Origin: Alloascoidea africana
Taxonomy: Eukaryota; Ascomycota; Alloascoideomycetes; Alloascoideales; Alloascoideaceae
Reading direction: 5' to 3'
Length of the DNA stretch: 64,000 nucleotides
NCBI GenBank assembly: GCA_030581615.1
Contig: JAKTTT010000041.1
Location: forward strand, 1 to 64,000
The notes under the pieces were generated by a model that was given only the letters and a program-made list of their open reading frames with translations, did not search any database and had not been told where the DNA came from. Of this stretch, positions 17,094-61,066 are shown piece after piece. Within the stretch, counting starts at the first letter, position 1. Each line of letters starts with the position of its first letter. The position numbers and the translations under genes were made by a program.

Positions 17094-20000
17094 CTAGGCC
17101 TCAATAAAAAAAGATTTTTCACCAGATTTTGGCAGTATAGTGGCTTTTCTCAACAACCGATCTCCAACCAGCAGCCTGATCTTCTCACTGGTCAAGGGGC
17201 TGGATACACTCAAGACGTCATCACCGTTTCCATCTAAGACATCCTGGCTATGTTCTTCTCTAGCATACTTCAAGGCATCTCGAATAGCAAATAGAGCGCC
17301 AGATCCCAAAAACAATGGAGGTTCACCAATCCCTTTACTTCCGTAAATGGTCTTCAAATGAGAAAACTCTCTGTCACGCAACATGCTGACGTTGAAAATT
17401 TGGGGGATATCGCGGAATCCAGGAATCTTGTAGTTGCCAGGGCCTCTTGTAAAAAGCGCACCATTATGACGTAACCAAAGAGACTCTTCAATGGTGAACA
17501 AGCCCTGACCTTGGATATAAGCTCCTTCGATCTGACCATAGTCGATTGCCTGGTTTATGGATCTGCCAACGTCCATCTTCAAGTCTGTGCGAAGACAAGT
17601 CCAGTCTCCTGTCAACAAATTTACTTCCACTTGCACTACAGCGCTACCCTGAGTGAAGTAGTAAAAAGCCGGACCTGGGTTCTCAGCCCCCCATTCATAT
17701 CCAATATCAGGGATTTTATAAAAGCCATTTGCAGACAAGTTCACGCGATCAAAGTAAGCGTCATGGGCCATCTGCTCCATTGTTGCATTTGGGCCATATT
17801 TGAGTCTGTAAGGAGCCAATCTCTGGTTTAACACATCGCAAGCATTTTTCACGGCCATGCCATTCAAATCACTGGATGCAGAAGCAGCAGTGGGTGAGGT
17901 ATTAGCTACAGTTTGAGTTGAAGTTTCGGAAATGAAGACTTGCTCCAATGGGACTTGCAATGCTTCAGCGGCAACCATACACATTTTCGTATTTAGACCC
18001 TGTCCCATTTCGGTGCCTCCATGGGCCACCAGCACGGAACCATCGTGGTAAATATGGACGAGTGCTCCTGCCTGATTCAAAAACAAAACTCCAAAAGATA
18101 TACCAAATTTGGTAGGGACGTGCGCAAGACCCCTTTTAATCCATTTATGCGAACTGTTGAATTCCTCAACCTCGAATCTCAACTTGTCATAATCAGCTTC
18201 TCTCTTGTTTTCTTGAGCTAATTTTGGCACAGTAAAATCCTGGTCAATTTTTTGCTTGTAAGGTGTTGTCTCTCCATTTTTGTAATAATTGATTTCTCGC
18301 AAAACATCTGGATCAATCCCCAACTTGTCCGAAACTTCAAAAATCATGGACTCTGCAGCAAACATGCCCTGTGGTCCTCCGAATCCCCTAAAAGCCGTGT
18401 TTGATGCCGTGTTAGTCTTGCAAGGAACACCTTGGATAAACGCATTTGGGAAATGATAACAGTTATCTATATGGAGAACGGCCCGATCAGTGACACCTCG
18501 GGTGAGATCCATACTCCAACCAGCATTGCTGTACAAATATGCCTCCAAGCCAGTGAATCGATAGTTTTCATCTAGGCCGACTTTCCAATTGATAAGAAAC
18601 GGATGACGTTGGCCTGAGGTCAACATGTCCTCAGATCTATTCAAGATCATCCTCACGGGCCGTTTGTATTTTTTAGCCCCCACTGCTGCAATTGAAGAGA
18701 GTTGGCAACTTCTGGTTTCTTTACCACCGAATCCTCCACCAAGTCGCTTTGTTCTTGCAACGACTCTTGAGGCCGGGACGCCTGTAACTTGTGCTGCCAA
18801 CAGCTGCGTCTCAGTAGGATTCTGGGTAGAGCCATAAATCTTTAGCTCGCCGTCTTCTTCGGGTACAACTAGGCATCCCTGAGTTTCTAGATAAAAATGT
18901 TCCTGTGCTCCAAATCTCGTTGTGCCTTGGAAAACATATTTCGATTTATCAAACACCAGATGCATAGGCTCACCCTTCTGCACCGTTCTCTTGTCATCAA
19001 AGAAACTCGAATGCTCAATTGCATCCTCAATGCTAATAACGGATGGAATATCGTTTCCATAAGTGATTTTGACTGCTCTAGCAGCCTCTGCGGCGCGCTC
19101 TCTACTTTTTGCCAGAATTACACCGATGCACTGTCCAACATAAAAAACTTTACCGTCCGCGAAAAACGGCTCTTTCCCAAATGGTAGATTCCCCCAGTAG
19201 TTTGCCTCTTTAGATGGCATGTCTGATGCATCAACCCAACCCATTACGCCTTCAATTTTCATTGCATCCTTTGTATCCACTGCCAGCAACTCGGCATGCG
19301 CCTTGGTGGACATTACTTGGACACCAAACAGCTCGCCAAACAAGGGGGGCATGTCGTCGACATACTGGGCTTCGCCAGAGACCTGCTTTGTTGCGGAAGT
19401 ATGAGGGTTGCTTTTCCCAATTACTTTGCTTTCATAAGGATTTACAAGATCTCGGGTACCAACGCTGTGTTCTCTTTGGACCTCGGTGAGTGAGTCGTAA
19501 TCATAACTTTTGACACCAGCGGATTTCAAAACATGGTTATAAAACTTGTAAAAGAAAGAAATTGCCAATGCCATACGGTAGGTTGGCATGCCACCGGGGA
19601 CGCTGAAGGGCAGTCTCAATTCATCCACCAATTTGTCAATAGCATCTTCTAAAGTTGACGGGTCTGCCAATGACTTTTGCTGCAAAGCGTTTGCTGTTTG
19701 GGATGCCTGTTGAGTTATTGAACTCATTCCTCCGTATACAAGAGAAGCGTCCACGATTTTCAACTCATTGTCATGTTTCAGTCTCAGACATGCGGTGACG
19801 ATGGCGATATCGTCATCTTTCCTCTTTGACTGTTTGAAAGCTTGGTAATACTCATTTTTGCCGGCCTCAGGTACGAAAAAGCTTGTGATGATGGCATTCG
19901 AAGGCAGTTTTGTCTTTCTGTAGGAGATGAAAAAATTGTTCATGTCTAGCTCCTCAACACCATTTTGAATAGACTCGACCAAAATCTTTGTGCCTGTGGC

Positions 20001-21416
20001 AACAAACACGGGGTTTAGATCTGATATTGGGCTCGCGGTGGCTACATTACCAGCAGGTGTAGCAGCGTTTCGGATCTGTCTTCCAGCAAAATACTGAATC
20101 TGCTGCAGCATCGCTTTGAACGGTTGGAATTGGTGTTGAGTCTCCACATTTTGGTTTTGAGGGTCATTCAACAAGTCATGGAGACAGTATTCGAGCTGCG
20201 ATATCGAAATGTTTGAGCCAAACTCGATCCCTTTCCCAGCAATGTGTCTAAAAGATTTCAACTCCTCAATGTCGTTTGCAAATACACAAACATTATAGTT
20301 CATTGCCTTGTACTTGACCTCGATTTGTATTTCAGAGGCTCCACCGACAATTTTACACTCTGGATAGGAGTTCTTTATCTGCAACAGCTGGTCTTTCGTC
20401 ACGGGTCTGAGCCATATCTTGCGTTGATTCCCGTAAAAAATGGGCTTGGCAACATACTTCTTTCGCAAAAATGGGGGAAAGATGAGCTCAGCTTTGGGCT
20501 CATACGCTTTCAACTTGAGACCGTTAGGCGTATACAGCTGTTCTTGTTTGTTCACATCGATTTCGGTGGACACATTGCCATTGCCATTGGCGAAACCGTT
20601 CACAATCGCCGATTTTGCGTCACCGGCACAACCATTACCGTTTGCATTGCCGTTTGCATTATCTCGACAACAGCCACCGGGCCTTCCACAGCTGAACGAT
20701 TCTTTTTTGCTGAATGTGTTTGCAGCGTCTATGATAGGTCTGTAACCAGTGCATCGGCACAAATTCCCATCGAGAGACTCAATAATCTGATCTTTGGATG
20801 GCTTGCCGCTATCAACATTCCTCAACAGCGCATACAGGCTCATCACTATACCAGGGGTACAAAAGCCACACTGAGAGCCATGGAACTTTGCAATTCGTTC
20901 TTGGATTGGATGGGGGTTTGCAGTTGTACCCAGTCCTTCGACAGTGACAAGATGTTTGCCTTCGACTGCGATCAATGGTACAATACACGAGTTAATGGCC
21001 GTGTACCTGAAAAAAAGGATAAGGTCAGACTAAAGAAGGATAAAGCTAAACGGTGGAGTGAAATGGAAGGATATTATGCTCACTTCCACTAACTAAAAAG
21101 CAAGTTTGAGTTGAAAAACATACCAAGGTTTCGCTTCCTGGTTATTCCAAAAGCTAACAACGACAGTACATGCGCCGCATCCTCCTTCTGAACAACCGAG
21201 CTTTGTGCCGGTGAGGCCAATTGAGCGCAGATAGTCCAGAAGAGTGCCTTCCGGGTCAGGGTTGGTGACTACGTGCCGTTTCCCGTTGAGATAGAACACA
21301 AGCGTGCTTGAAAAGCCCAGGTGGAGCAGCTCTGGAGGCAACTCTACCAGATTAAGCTCATCAGAATCAGAGTCTGATTCGCCAAAGGTTTCTTCAAAAG
21401 CCGGCGGCGCAACCAT
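17094..21416 (-). CDS. Xanthine dehydrogenase (molybdopterin/FAD/2Fe-2S), two exons
   Basis: Exon 1 (21124-21416) and exon 2 (17094-21006) join across a 117-bp intron (GTATGT...TTTTTTCAG) to 1,401 residues, the usual length for eukaryotic xanthine dehydrogenase. The N-terminal plant-type 2Fe-2S domain has [10 protein letters not shown] (Cys 75, 80, 83). The second cluster domain has CGFC (144/147) and CRC (181/183). The FAD domain shows VGGASE and [12 protein letters not shown]. The molybdenum domains carry [23 protein letters not shown] and GSKGIGEPP. The enzyme oxidises hypoxanthine and xanthine to urate and permits growth on purines; Saccharomyces lacks it and it occurs in only some yeasts. 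The start ATG at 21416 leaves 282 bp to the divergent GT34 gene. No C-terminal peroxisomal signal (ends FFIEA). Confidence 0.96.
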
Positions 21417-56083: not shown

Positions 56084-58509
56084 TTAATGGGATACATCTT
56101 TGGTAGCTTGCGAAATGTGGGTAGTATTGACCTTTTGGAAAGTTAGTATCAAAGCATTTATAACGAATCTTCTGTGACTTACCTTTGTTGCAAACCGCAA
56201 TGAATTCAGCGTTTCATTGAGATGTTGTTGAAGAGGTGAAATATTCACAAACATTAAAGTTTTTGAGTTCCCACTCAGGGAGTACTGCAAAAGATAGGTG
56301 AGCTATAAAAGCGTGTTAGAAGCTGATCTCTTGAGGTTCTGGCATTTATTCTTCTTACCTTTGAGTTTCTAAAAGGAATGTGACCAGATTCTCCCCTTGT
56401 CCCAAGCGCGTGAATGACATCTCCCAAACAGCTTAAACTCTTATTAATGGCCTGGGTTTCTTTAAGCCTATCTCCTGTTGCCTGAGAATGCGAAAGTCGT
56501 TCCGATCCAGCTAGATCAATAAGATTCAACTTTCCCTCACAACGTTCTCCAGTCTTTGAATTTTGGCCTTTCAAGTAGATCATGAAAACACTGTGAGACC
56601 TAGACGACCTCTCATTTGCCTTGGTAGCAGCCACTGATCTATTGCTGGATGCTTGCTGTAAGATCTGATCCACCTGACAGGGAGATTCTAACGAAACTGT
56701 TGTAAGTCCTGTTACTACTGTCTTTTGCACTTTTGGTAAATGTCGAATCTCAAACTTTTTCTTGTCGATCTCATTTGCATTTCCAAGCAAGTCGTTTACA
56801 TTCTCATTATAGATTTCCAAAAATTGTCCTTCAAACTGGTAAACCCATCCTCGCTCTTCCAAACTATTGGCCGTGTCAAAGATTTGTTTCACTGTTCGAG
56901 GAATCATGCCATCCTCAGAAGACATTGTATGTGTTTTGCCTGAGCCTGTTTGTCCATATGCGAAAATACAGACGTTGTAGCCGTCAAGAGCGCTTTGAAC
57001 CAACTGGGACAGCTCTTCGAATATCTCTTCGTTTGTAGCTGATGTTTGGAAGACCTTGTCAAATTGAAAAGGGTATGTCTTGGATCTCTCGTTAATTCGT
57101 TGTCTAAAACTTATTTCTTGTCCTTCTTCATCTTGATCTGGAAATTTCATATCCGCAATTGCCTGTCCCTGGCCTTGCTCTTTTGGTAAGACAGGTCTAA
57201 TCCTGCAGTACACTCTAATATTCCCCTTCAAGTCTTGCACCCGATTGTGGAGTTTCCTTCTTAGCGTTTCTTCGTGGATCAGCTCTTCTTTTGTGGATTT
57301 GATTGCTTTTTGTATATTTTCTATTGCTTGTTTCATGTCTTCAAGTCGCTCTTCTTTGCTCCGTATACCCTTTTGGAGATTCTCAATGCTTTGGCGCACG
57401 TCCTTAGTTTCTGAGTCCATTTTCCCGAGTTCTAGTTCTTGAATGTTTAATGTCTGTCTCATTTTGTCGTTGGCGGCTTCCTGTTCCGCGATCAAGTTGC
57501 TTATTGTTGTACCCTCTTTTTCCAAGTCTTTTGTCTGGATTTCGAATCTCTCCATATCACATTGAAGGGCAGACCTTTGCTTTTCAAAAGCTTCCTCTAA
57601 ATTGCTTATAGCTCGTTTATGGCTTTCTTGTTCCTTGGCCACCATTTTATCCAAATTTTCTTTCATCCGAACAAGTTCATTTTCTAACGACATCACTTTA
57701 TTTCTCAGTTTTGTGGTAAACTCTTGCTGCTGTCTCCTATGAGAACCGAGCAATTCGGCTTTCCGCGTTTCATGTTCTTTCCTTGCAAGCTCCATCCGCT
57801 GTTGGTGACGCAGTCTTAATTCCTGAATTTTCAATTCACTTTCCTCGCCAATCTCTTTGTTCAAAAGCTCAGCTTTTTCCCCTGCCGCGCCAATTGCTAT
57901 ATGTTGCGCCTGAAGATCTCGTTGCAGTTTCACAATTGTATCCTCAAATTGCTGGCTCTTGAAATTGAGGCCAGATTTTTCAGTTTCGAGTGTCATAATC
58001 TTTGATTTTAGTTCATTAGATTCGAGTTCATGCTGTGTACTCTCATGTTTCATTTTCTCAACCAACTTCAAATGTTCGCCTTCAACTTGAGAAATTCGGT
58101 CCTCAAAGCATTTTGCAAGCATACTGTCTTGATGCTTTATACCTCCAACGCCGCCTGAATAACGAGTAGTACCTGGCGTCGTTATTTCTATTCGACCAAT
58201 TGCAGAAGCTGGTCGTGGTCGCTTGGTCAAGTTTTCTTTCCCTCTGTCTGCTTGGTAAATGCTAAAGTTATGGGCTTTGTGAACAACTTTTTTAGTCGTA
58301 TATCCAGCTGTATTGACTTTTAATGGGTGATTGAGATCCATCTCTGTTAACACTTCTCGTGGAGCAGGCATCATTTCTCTGGTGTGCGCGTTTGTATTCA
58401 GAACAATGGGCGTCTTCAAACCCTTTGATTTCTTAGGAAGCGGTATCTTTGATCCGGTGCTATCAGAACCATCTGTGTTCATCTCGGGCAAAGCTAGAGC
58501 ACCCACCAT
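56084..58509 (-). CDS. Kinesin-14 (Kar3/Klp2-type, C-terminal motor), three exons
   Basis: Exons 56359-58509, 56183-56302 and 56084-56131 join in phase to 772 residues; introns of 56 and 51 bp start GTAAGA/GTAAGT, and the second has a TACTAAC branch. The tail (1-130) is basic and Pro/Thr-rich. A long coiled coil follows (about 130-428). The neck [14 protein letters not shown] introduces the motor: GQTGSGKT (519-526), SSRSHSVF (switch I), [13 protein letters not shown] (switch II), then [28 protein letters not shown] rebuilt across intron 1 and LRFATKV across intron 2. Neck-before-motor order marks a minus-end kinesin-14, acting in spindle and, in yeasts, nuclear fusion. Intron retention would truncate the motor. 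Confidence 0.95.
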
Positions 58510-58776: not shown

Positions 58777-61066
58777 TCAGCTTGATATTCTTGTGTAAAG
58801 GGCGTTGATATAATCTGTTATCCGTTCGACCGTTTTGTGATGGACTTTCGATCCTCCTGTGACCAAAAGCTTTGAAGAATTTGACAACTCAAATGTTGAG
58901 ACCTCGCCCTGCGTAAGTCGATTCCTATCGTCCCAGTATATGATCAGGTCTGGACAGTACAAGCTCCCTTCCTGTTCGGTTTTCAGCCTTGCCAGAGCCA
59001 ATGCCCATCTAGACTGGTGAGCTTTGCTCCTGTCGCTATTTAGTGATTTAAGAAGCGTTTTGGATCCAGGGTCTGAAAGCGCAGAGTATGAGAGCGACGA
59101 GCCTAGTTCATCACACATTCGAACCAGGTACCCATTGACTATGAGCGTGGTATTAGATTTTCCATTTATGAAGCTTCTGATCGAATGCACAACATCTAGT
59201 GTTTTTTTCTGATTGACAGCCTCTCCAGCCTTGCTAATACCGAGCTTCTTCCCAACGTCATTGAAAGGTGAATTATATAGCATGCAACTTGGTAATTGGC
59301 TGGCTAGCATCCTTGAGAACTCTTCTGTGTTCGACCCTTCTACAGCAATAAACAGGGTTTTGTTTCTCCTACTCCGATGTTTGGACTTGCTAGACCTGCC
59401 TCTCCAGGAGCGTAAACTGGCCGCGATAATATCAGCTTTATCTTTAATGGAAAGGTCGGGTTCTGTGGAGAGAGATGATGACGCCTGTTTTTGATCTGGT
59501 AGACTATCTCCCAGCATCTCGTCTATTTTGACCCTCCTCATAGAGTGGGATCTGGACTGGTGGTCATCTTTCTGGAGTAAACCCCTCTCAGGATTGAGAT
59601 GGATCAGTGACGGAAAAGACATGTTCTTGTTTATTGAAGATGATGGCGGAGAACTGGCACTTAATCCCGAATGGCTGCTGCTAATACTGCTGCTTCTGAT
59701 GCTGTTGCTTCTGTGACTGTTTGGCAATTGGTCTCTGAGGGCTGGTGAACCACTCGATATGGGTGACCTTGAATGAGAGGAACTTGCCAAGTTTGATTGG
59801 TCTTGGATTTGGGTTTGAACAGCGAACTGGTGCTGTGCTTGTTGAAAAGGCACATTTTGATGGTTATTAGCTGCGTAATAGGGTTGTGAGCCTTGCTGCT
59901 GCTGTGCTAGATAGGGAAAGCTGTGTGAAGATTTGTTCGACTGGTTCACGAAGGAGACCTGGGAGGTTGAAACGTGCTGACCTGCGCTTGCACTTGTGCT
60001 TGAATACTGAGCGGGCTGTTGCTGGTAAACCGAATAGGGTATGCCGCCAGCGACATTTGGGCCAGCGGAAGCTTGGACGGGGAAGCTGAACAGAAAAGGC
60101 GTTCCAGTTCCTGTCCCCGCGGCCGTAACCTGGTGACCCTGTATTTGTTGCTGGTTTGCTCCTACATACGGCCCTCCGACAAACGCAAACGGCTGGTGGT
60201 TTTGGTTGATTTGGCTGATTGTAGATGAGGAGGTGATGGCTTCGTCAGGATAAGATCCGCCGTTTTTTGTCACATAACCGTTACAGACCACACATTCAAA
60301 GACGTTATTGGAACCGCTTTTACTTTTTACTGATCGTCTCGGCTGGTAGCGGTAGTCAGGATACTTTTCGCTGTGTGCTTTTTTCTCCTCCTCGCTCAGT
60401 TTTATCCAATAGTTTTTGTCCTCCTGACTCAGTGCCCGCCACCTTTGTCCTATTATTTTTGAAATCTCGGGATTAGATTTTCCCTTAAATTCTCCGATAA
60501 CCGAAGCATGGTATTTTTGTCGGAAGAGGATGAATGCTTGAAAGGGATAAAAAGCAAGGACATGACAGATGCCTGTTAGTGTGAAATAAAGCCTGAAATT
60601 TGATTTTTGTGGACTCACCATTTCTCGGTCTTGGAATTCGGTTATTATTCTTGGAACAAGTACACTGATTCATCAAAATAGGTCTTTGGGATATCGCCCC
60701 AGAGGTGGGATCAATTGCAAACGTGTCGGTGTAGGCACTCATACTTTTGGCCTTGCCCTTGGAGTGGGTTGGAGCTGATACATGACCAGACAGTTGCTGC
60801 CCTTCATCCCCGTGTATTATAGTGCCTGGTGTTCCGGAGACAGGAGCAGCCATATGACCGAAATTTTTAAACTGGATAGGGCTAGGTCCTACCATTCCAG
60901 CTGTTGGATAATGAAATTGAGTAGGAGGATACAAGATTGCTGCGTTTGGAGTACTACTGTATAAGGAATTAGCATTTTGGTCGTTGCCGCTCCACCGTTC
61001 ATAGATAGGCGTTTGAGTTAATCCCGTCAAATTACTAGTGTCATTGTGTTCATTTTGATTTGCCAT
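58777..61066 (-). CDS. HMG-box protein with a C-terminal thymidylate-kinase-like (P-loop-less) domain, two exons
   Basis: Exon 1 (60619-61066) and exon 2 (58777-60536) join across an 82-bp intron (GTGAGT, CACTAAC branch, TTTCAAG) to 735 residues. The junction rebuilds RIPRPRNAFILFRQKYH at the start of an HMG box (about 143-216; later WRALSQEDKNYWIKLSEEEKKAH and YPDYRYQPRR), the MATA_HMG/Ste11/Rox1 type. A CxxC pair follows, then ~300 Gln/Ser-rich residues. The last ~190 residues (542-735) form a folded domain: TLFIAVEG, LPSCMLYNSPFNDVGKKL, TTLIVNGYL, LYCPDLIIYWD and SSKLLVTGGSKVHHKTVERI. These follow the order of strands in thymidylate kinases such as Cdc8, but the Gly-x4-GK(T/S) loop and the DRY motif are lost. 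Probably a nuclear transcription factor with a non-catalytic domain. Confidence 0.85.

Follow-up and report, generated by a model that had tools for sequence, protein, structure and literature searches.

Results

The HMG-box gene and its neighbors

Within the window (the whole 64,000-nucleotide stretch of DNA analyzed here), the minus strand carries a two-exon gene for a protein with an HMG box, a long, S/Q-rich linker of disordered appearance and a C-terminal domain, which we call the tail (Table 1). An earlier note on this DNA had placed the tail at positions 58780-59361, an interval that corresponds exactly to residues 542-735 after splicing, and had described one continuous exon from the HMG box to the end; the frame is indeed open from the RPRN of the box to the stop codon, but the box itself is interrupted after RPRN by an intron (60618-60537).

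Elsewhere in the window, the gene at 56275-58509, which we take to be kinesin-like, has a frame that runs into what looks like an intron (GTAAGA ... CTAAC ... TAG, from ~56358 downwards). Kinesin-like sequence (LTYLLQ...) resumes past this intron, and the open reading frame as listed is therefore truncated. The open reading frame at 17094-20843 resembles molybdenum hydroxylases related to xanthine dehydrogenase; genes of this type are unusual in budding yeasts.

Table 1. Coordinates of the HMG-box gene, its protein domains and motifs.
Feature	Position	Strand	Residues	Description	Basis
HMG-box gene, whole	61066-60619 + 60536-58777	minus	735 in total	two exons, spliced translation	
Exon 1	60619-61066	minus	1-149, plus base 1 of codon 150	Met start	open frame and splice junction
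CxC preceding HMG box	60656-60664	minus	135-137	present in 3/3 paralogs	
HMG box	60334-60640	minus	143-217	RIPRPRNAFILFRQ...YPDYRYQPRR; split by intron	Pfam PF00505
Intron within HMG box	60537-60618	minus		82 bases; GTGAGT ... CTAAC ... CAAG	read from sequence
Exon 2	58777-60536	minus		1760 bases; unbroken frame from HMG box to stop codon	
CxxC following HMG box	60283-60294	minus	231-234	present in 3/3 paralogs	
MRRVKIDEML	59512-59541	minus	482-491	linker motif	alignment of paralogs
SIKDKADIIAASLRSW	59404-59451	minus	512-527	probable helix entering the tail domain; resembles the paralog sequences	paralog alignment
C-terminal domain (tail)	58780-59361	minus	542-735 (194 aa)	likely degenerate thymidylate-kinase-like fold	paralog tails, hhalign, ranking
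KTLFIAVEG	59335-59361	minus		putative equivalent of TMPK strand 1 (xxFIxIEG), not followed by a P-loop	hhalign
NGYL	59125-59136	minus		possible DRY counterpart; GYL invariant in 3 paralogs	one hhalign run
CPDLII	58939-58956	minus		putative counterpart of TMPK PDL strand; CPD[LI]II in 3/3	two hhalign alignments
STFELSNSSKL	58867-58899	minus		strongly conserved, runs into last strand; STF, L, NS and KL invariant in 3/3	

HMG boxes bind and bend DNA, and the boxes of SOX and SRY proteins recognize specific sequences. The box of the window protein matches PF00505 with an E value of 5.5e-15 and 56 bits, against a curated cut-off of 25.4. Among PDB sequences it has 32 matches, the best being SOX-5 (E 9.3e-10); the best 20 of the 32 comprise 18 SOX or SRY proteins, LEF-1 and an SRY/HMGB1 chimera, while the remaining 12 include mitochondrial Abf2 and HMG box-containing protein 1. 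These matches indicate a box of the sequence-specific (SOX/TCF/MATA) type rather than the HMGB type. The box is flanked by a CxC and a CxxC motif, and since the two ends of an HMG box are close together in space, these four cysteines are a candidate metal clamp: they could bind a metal ion and hold the box.

Three genes share the tail

A search of the assembly that contains the window (138 contigs, 23.18 Mb) found two paralogs, on contigs C1 and C40. Each encodes an HMG box (PF00505 matches of 51.4 and 52.2 bits), has its intron at the corresponding codon and ends in a homologous tail. Every pair of HMG boxes shares 91% identity. The tails are far more diverged, with pairwise identities of 32-40%, and they still find one another by blastp (window/C1, E 2.9e-18; window/C40, E 3.0e-17; C1/C40, E 3.5e-7). 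Over the three tails, 32 columns are invariant, with clusters at K-T-x-x-I-x-x-E, GYL, CPD-x-II and STF-x-L-x-NS-x-KL. The genome holds six weaker HMG-box matches elsewhere; at two of these places, on contigs C11 and C7, no tail domain was found within 1.5 kb on each side. The two paralogs show the tail to be a real conserved domain of an HMG-box family.

The substitution pattern tells less. For the tail we obtained pN values of 0.43-0.49 (HMG box, 0.05-0.06) and pS values of 0.67-0.85, so that pN is below pS in all three pairs, with pS saturated. A forced alignment of the S/Q-rich linker gives values resembling those of the tail (identity 0.31-0.33, pN 0.53-0.55). Because of this similarity and the saturation of pS, the pN/pS of the tail is by itself a weak sign of selection. 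Within the linker, the motif MRRVKIDEML has the counterparts FKRVKLDDLL and VKRIDLGDIM in the paralogs and may be an activation or repression peptide.

Searches of family libraries did not name the tail: it had no significant family match in Pfam, NCBIfam or PHROGs and none among PDB sequences, and the thymidylate kinase (TMPK) family PF02223 was absent for all three tails in a Pfam search up to E 10, its cut-off not being reached. We read the weak matches that did appear as chance, because none spans the domain and the families named are unrelated; these were Pfam Inhibitor_I78 at E 0.0071 with the C40 tail (16.8 bits, where 23.6 is required), an NCBIfam manganese catalase (E 0.032) and PHROG 26380 (E 0.18). 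The PDB sequence matches (best E 0.079, or 0.058 with a profile) were likewise read as chance. Two single-sequence structure predictions of the tail had mean pLDDT values of 40.4 and 37.2, too poor to use. The tail is an undescribed conserved domain, found in three genes here and missed by current family libraries.

Comparison of the tail with thymidylate kinase

The earlier note had proposed that the tail follows TMPK, an enzyme of DNA-precursor synthesis, strand by strand. A blastp comparison of the tail with the genome's own TMPK found no match, and a viral scan for TMPK material found no relatives. For profile comparisons, we built a TMPK profile of 32 sequences, 29 from the 30 archaeal loci fetched plus three from eukaryotes (the genome's own TMPK, Cdc8 and human TMPK); a phage search gave 33 records, none of which was used. 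Five comparison profiles were made from 30 fetched loci each, of which 15 were kept for ADK (weak ones omitted), 26 for SIS, 18 for AAA_33 and all 30 for both SDR and Usp.

Aligned by hhalign with the TMPK profile, the profile of the three tails scored 28.9 (probability 24%, 159 columns) with a P value of 8.2e-4, which is optimistic because the fold had been named beforehand by the earlier reader and is one among many folds that might have been chosen. The alignment is colinear from end to end, setting query columns 1-191 on template columns 7-202, and five alternative query alignments scored 28.9-33.0 with probabilities of 24-50%. Against the five other profiles the tails scored 13.2-19.3; neither ADK (17.0) nor AAA_33 (16.2), which share the P-loop kinase fold, was matched. 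None of 400 column shuffles, which do not preserve the helix-strand pattern, reached the observed score (best 23.8), and neither did any of 180 triplets drawn from the alpha/beta families SDR, Usp and SIS (best 22.7). As a positive control, all 60 triplets taken from ADK, a true NMP kinase, scored above it.

Other results count against a TMPK origin. The three eukaryotic TMPKs alone gave none (15.6, P 0.16), and of the single tails, those of the window and C40 scored 21.8 and 25.1 against TMPK while that of C1 alone gave nothing (13.5). With hhalign run under '-M first', a template trimmed at ILLEG scored 19.4, and restoring its N-terminus raised the score to 27.5; much of the TMPK signal is thus carried by strand 1.

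A ranking test with a different program agreed with the comparison of the full profiles. An HMM of the tails was run over the open reading frames of at least 100 aa reported from the fetched loci (43 TMPKs and 844 others), and it placed TMPKs at 8 of the top 20 ranks, with an AUC of 0.83. The best of 120 shuffles reached 4/20 and an AUC of 0.76, the best of 75 alpha/beta triplets 4/20 and 0.80, and 25 ADK triplets, as a positive control, a mean AUC of 0.90. Together, these tests support, without proving, a TMPK-like origin as the best among the six families compared.

The two open reading frames that best matched the tail profile, out of 1861, come from the archaeal loci L119 and L118 (E 0.11 for both) and rank above all thymidylate kinases. 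They are not TMPKs and had been weak matches in the adenylate-kinase search. Small archaeal P-loop kinases, these two included, may be a better template for the tail.

Probable TMPK-like strands and absent catalytic motifs

Three pieces carry the match to TMPK: strand 1, the PDL strand and the last strand-helix. Strand 1 of the tail (KTLFIAVEG) stands against KTFYIAVEG in the archaeal TMPK L043, and CPDLII against KPDIIV. In mid-alignment the register varies, one hhalign alignment setting NGYL on DRY and two others setting CDEL there. The pieces quoted in the earlier note are all present in the tail (FIAVEG, LPSCMLYNSPFNDVGKKL, TTLIVNGYL, LYCPDLIIYWD and SSKLLVTGGSKV...I.DYI), and the Cdc8 and human lines that it gave (LQPNCKLLKFPERSTRIGG, LPKPDL.LFL) agree with the alignments of 1tmk and human TMPK. 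Of its strand-by-strand likeness, what stands is a colinear match that beats every shuffle and every decoy; the register of the middle region is unstable, and the fold is not established.

Its statement that the catalytic motifs are gone is borne out in all three paralogs. None of the tails has a P-loop (G-x4-GK[ST]), which the genome's own TMPK on contig C90 does have, and none has DR[YHF]. In kinases the P-loop comes after the first strand. The sole GKS triplet, in the tail of the window protein (INGKSNTT), just precedes the TTLIV strand and is far from strand 1. The LID stretch, counted from the PDL strand up to the last strand, measures 22, 21 and 29 residues in the three tails against 45 in the genome's own TMPK. 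Of the FPxR-type motif, which binds dTMP in TMPK, the proline alone is common to all three tails.

A working kinase is very unlikely, since the tails have no P-loop, no DR[YHF] and a LID about half as long; on the first two of these grounds, an active kinase was discarded as a candidate. Judged from the same motifs, nucleotide binding by way of a P-loop is also very unlikely.

Discussion

As far as sequence comparison goes, a degenerate thymidylate-kinase-like fold is the reading of the tail with the best support, and the tail probably descends from a TMPK-like ancestor. We propose that the protein would act as a sequence-specific HMG-box transcription regulator, and that its last 194 residues would form a separate alpha/beta domain, most likely derived from a P-loop nucleoside-monophosphate kinase of the TMPK type. 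This domain would have retained strand 1, the PDL strand and the last strand-helix, while losing the P-loop and the DRY pair and shortening the LID stretch, and it would now serve as a protein-interaction module, pairing with itself or with a paralog or docking a co-regulator. The HMG box would bind and presumably bend DNA while the tail holds the partner, and partner contacts might be made through the invariant STF-x-L-x-NS-x-KL stretch. TMPKs are homodimers, which would make self-pairing the simplest property to have been retained, and we favor dimerization or partner docking as the role of the tail. The earlier note had suggested either nucleotide sensing or dimerization; the first appears less likely than the second, since none of the three copies retains the P-loop. 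Taken as a whole, an HMG-box regulator with a non-catalytic, TMPK-derived tail as its interaction module seems to us somewhat probable.

The tail may instead be a fungal regulator domain of its own kind, small and alpha/beta or mixed in structure, whose likeness to TMPK is due to chance or is of a general nature; it would then still be an interaction domain of the HMG-box family. We regard this as a tenable but less probable account. It fits the lack of a significant library or PDB-sequence match, the failure of the eukaryotic TMPKs alone and of two other P-loop kinase families to give a signal, the absence of TMPK's defining catalytic motifs and LID length, and the want of a stable register in mid-alignment. 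It is opposed by a TMPK score above all 400 shuffles and 180 alpha/beta decoys, by a ranking result above all 120 shuffles and 75 decoys, and by the colinearity of the match across nearly the whole domain. Should the TMPK origin fail, the tail would still be an undescribed conserved domain in three genes.

A reading in which a degenerate kinase tail would go on binding nucleotide (dTMP or a dNTP) without P-loop chemistry, and so tie DNA binding to the nucleotide pool, is improbable. A fungal precedent for an inactive, enzyme-derived sensor exists in QutR, which resembles part of AROM and is thought to bind the inducer (PMC10512348). Yeast HMG-box proteins also touch dNTP supply: Ixr1 is required for RNR1 expression and Rox1 controls RNR2, RNR3 and RNR4 (PMC3088718), and this tie to ribonucleotide-reductase expression makes a link to thymidylate kinase testable. 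Against nucleotide binding stand the loss of the P-loop and DRY in all three paralogs and the reduction of the FPxR-type motif to a shared proline. Quite improbable, too, is a broader scenario in which HMG regulators captured a TMPK that became non-catalytic and is now carried by three paralogs, and in which this dead kinase would still read the thymidylate or dNTP state and couple precursor supply to transcription; the state would be read, as part of the same scenario, either at a site formed anew or in a pair with the live enzyme. That two genes were fused by an assembly or annotation error, or that the tail is functionless, decaying sequence, is scarcely credible: the tail matches no known domain and has diverged fast relative to the HMG box, but it lies in a single open exon of 1760 bases, and two paralogs on other contigs have the same order and intron position, with open, homologous tails and pN below pS in every pair, though with pS saturated; this identical layout leads us to reject an artifact, and it also upholds the denial of a mis-joined gene pair in the earlier note.

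Should the fold of the preferred reading, a TMPK-derived tail, be confirmed, the window protein would, to our knowledge, be the first case of an HMG-box regulator carrying a domain derived from a nucleotide kinase. We know of no Rox1 or Rfg1 member with a kinase-like tail, and in the open-access literature searched we found no description of an HMG box paired with a thymidylate-kinase-like domain; terms for the two co-occur in the Ixr1 paper, where they are unrelated. By box type, the likely relatives of the window protein are the regulators of the Rox1/Rfg1/PaHMG8 clade of fungal HMG-box proteins (PMC3730723). Like these and the MAT-type (MATA_HMG) regulators, the window protein has a single HMG box of the sequence-specific type and a long S/Q-rich linker.

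With TMPK itself (PF02223; Cdc8 and human DTYMK), the tail would share the xxFIxIEG strand 1, the PDL strand and the last strand-helix in colinear order; unlike TMPK, it has neither P-loop nor DRY, its LID stretch is about half as long, and it lies beneath Pfam detection. NadR, a bacterial HTH regulator with a P-loop kinase domain whose nucleotide site is retained for sensing, similarly joins DNA binding and a nucleoside-kinase-like P-loop domain in one chain. It differs in being bacterial and in that its nucleotide site is kept and used, whereas in the tail the site is lost. Repressors of the QutR type offer a fungal parallel, in that an apparently dead metabolic enzyme has been reused in transcription control (PMC10512348). 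QutR is a separate protein that acts on the activator QutA and derives from another enzyme with another fold, whereas in the window protein the enzyme-like part and the DNA-binding domain share one chain. With its fold confirmed, the tail would be a further case of a metabolic enzyme recruited to transcription control after the loss of catalysis.
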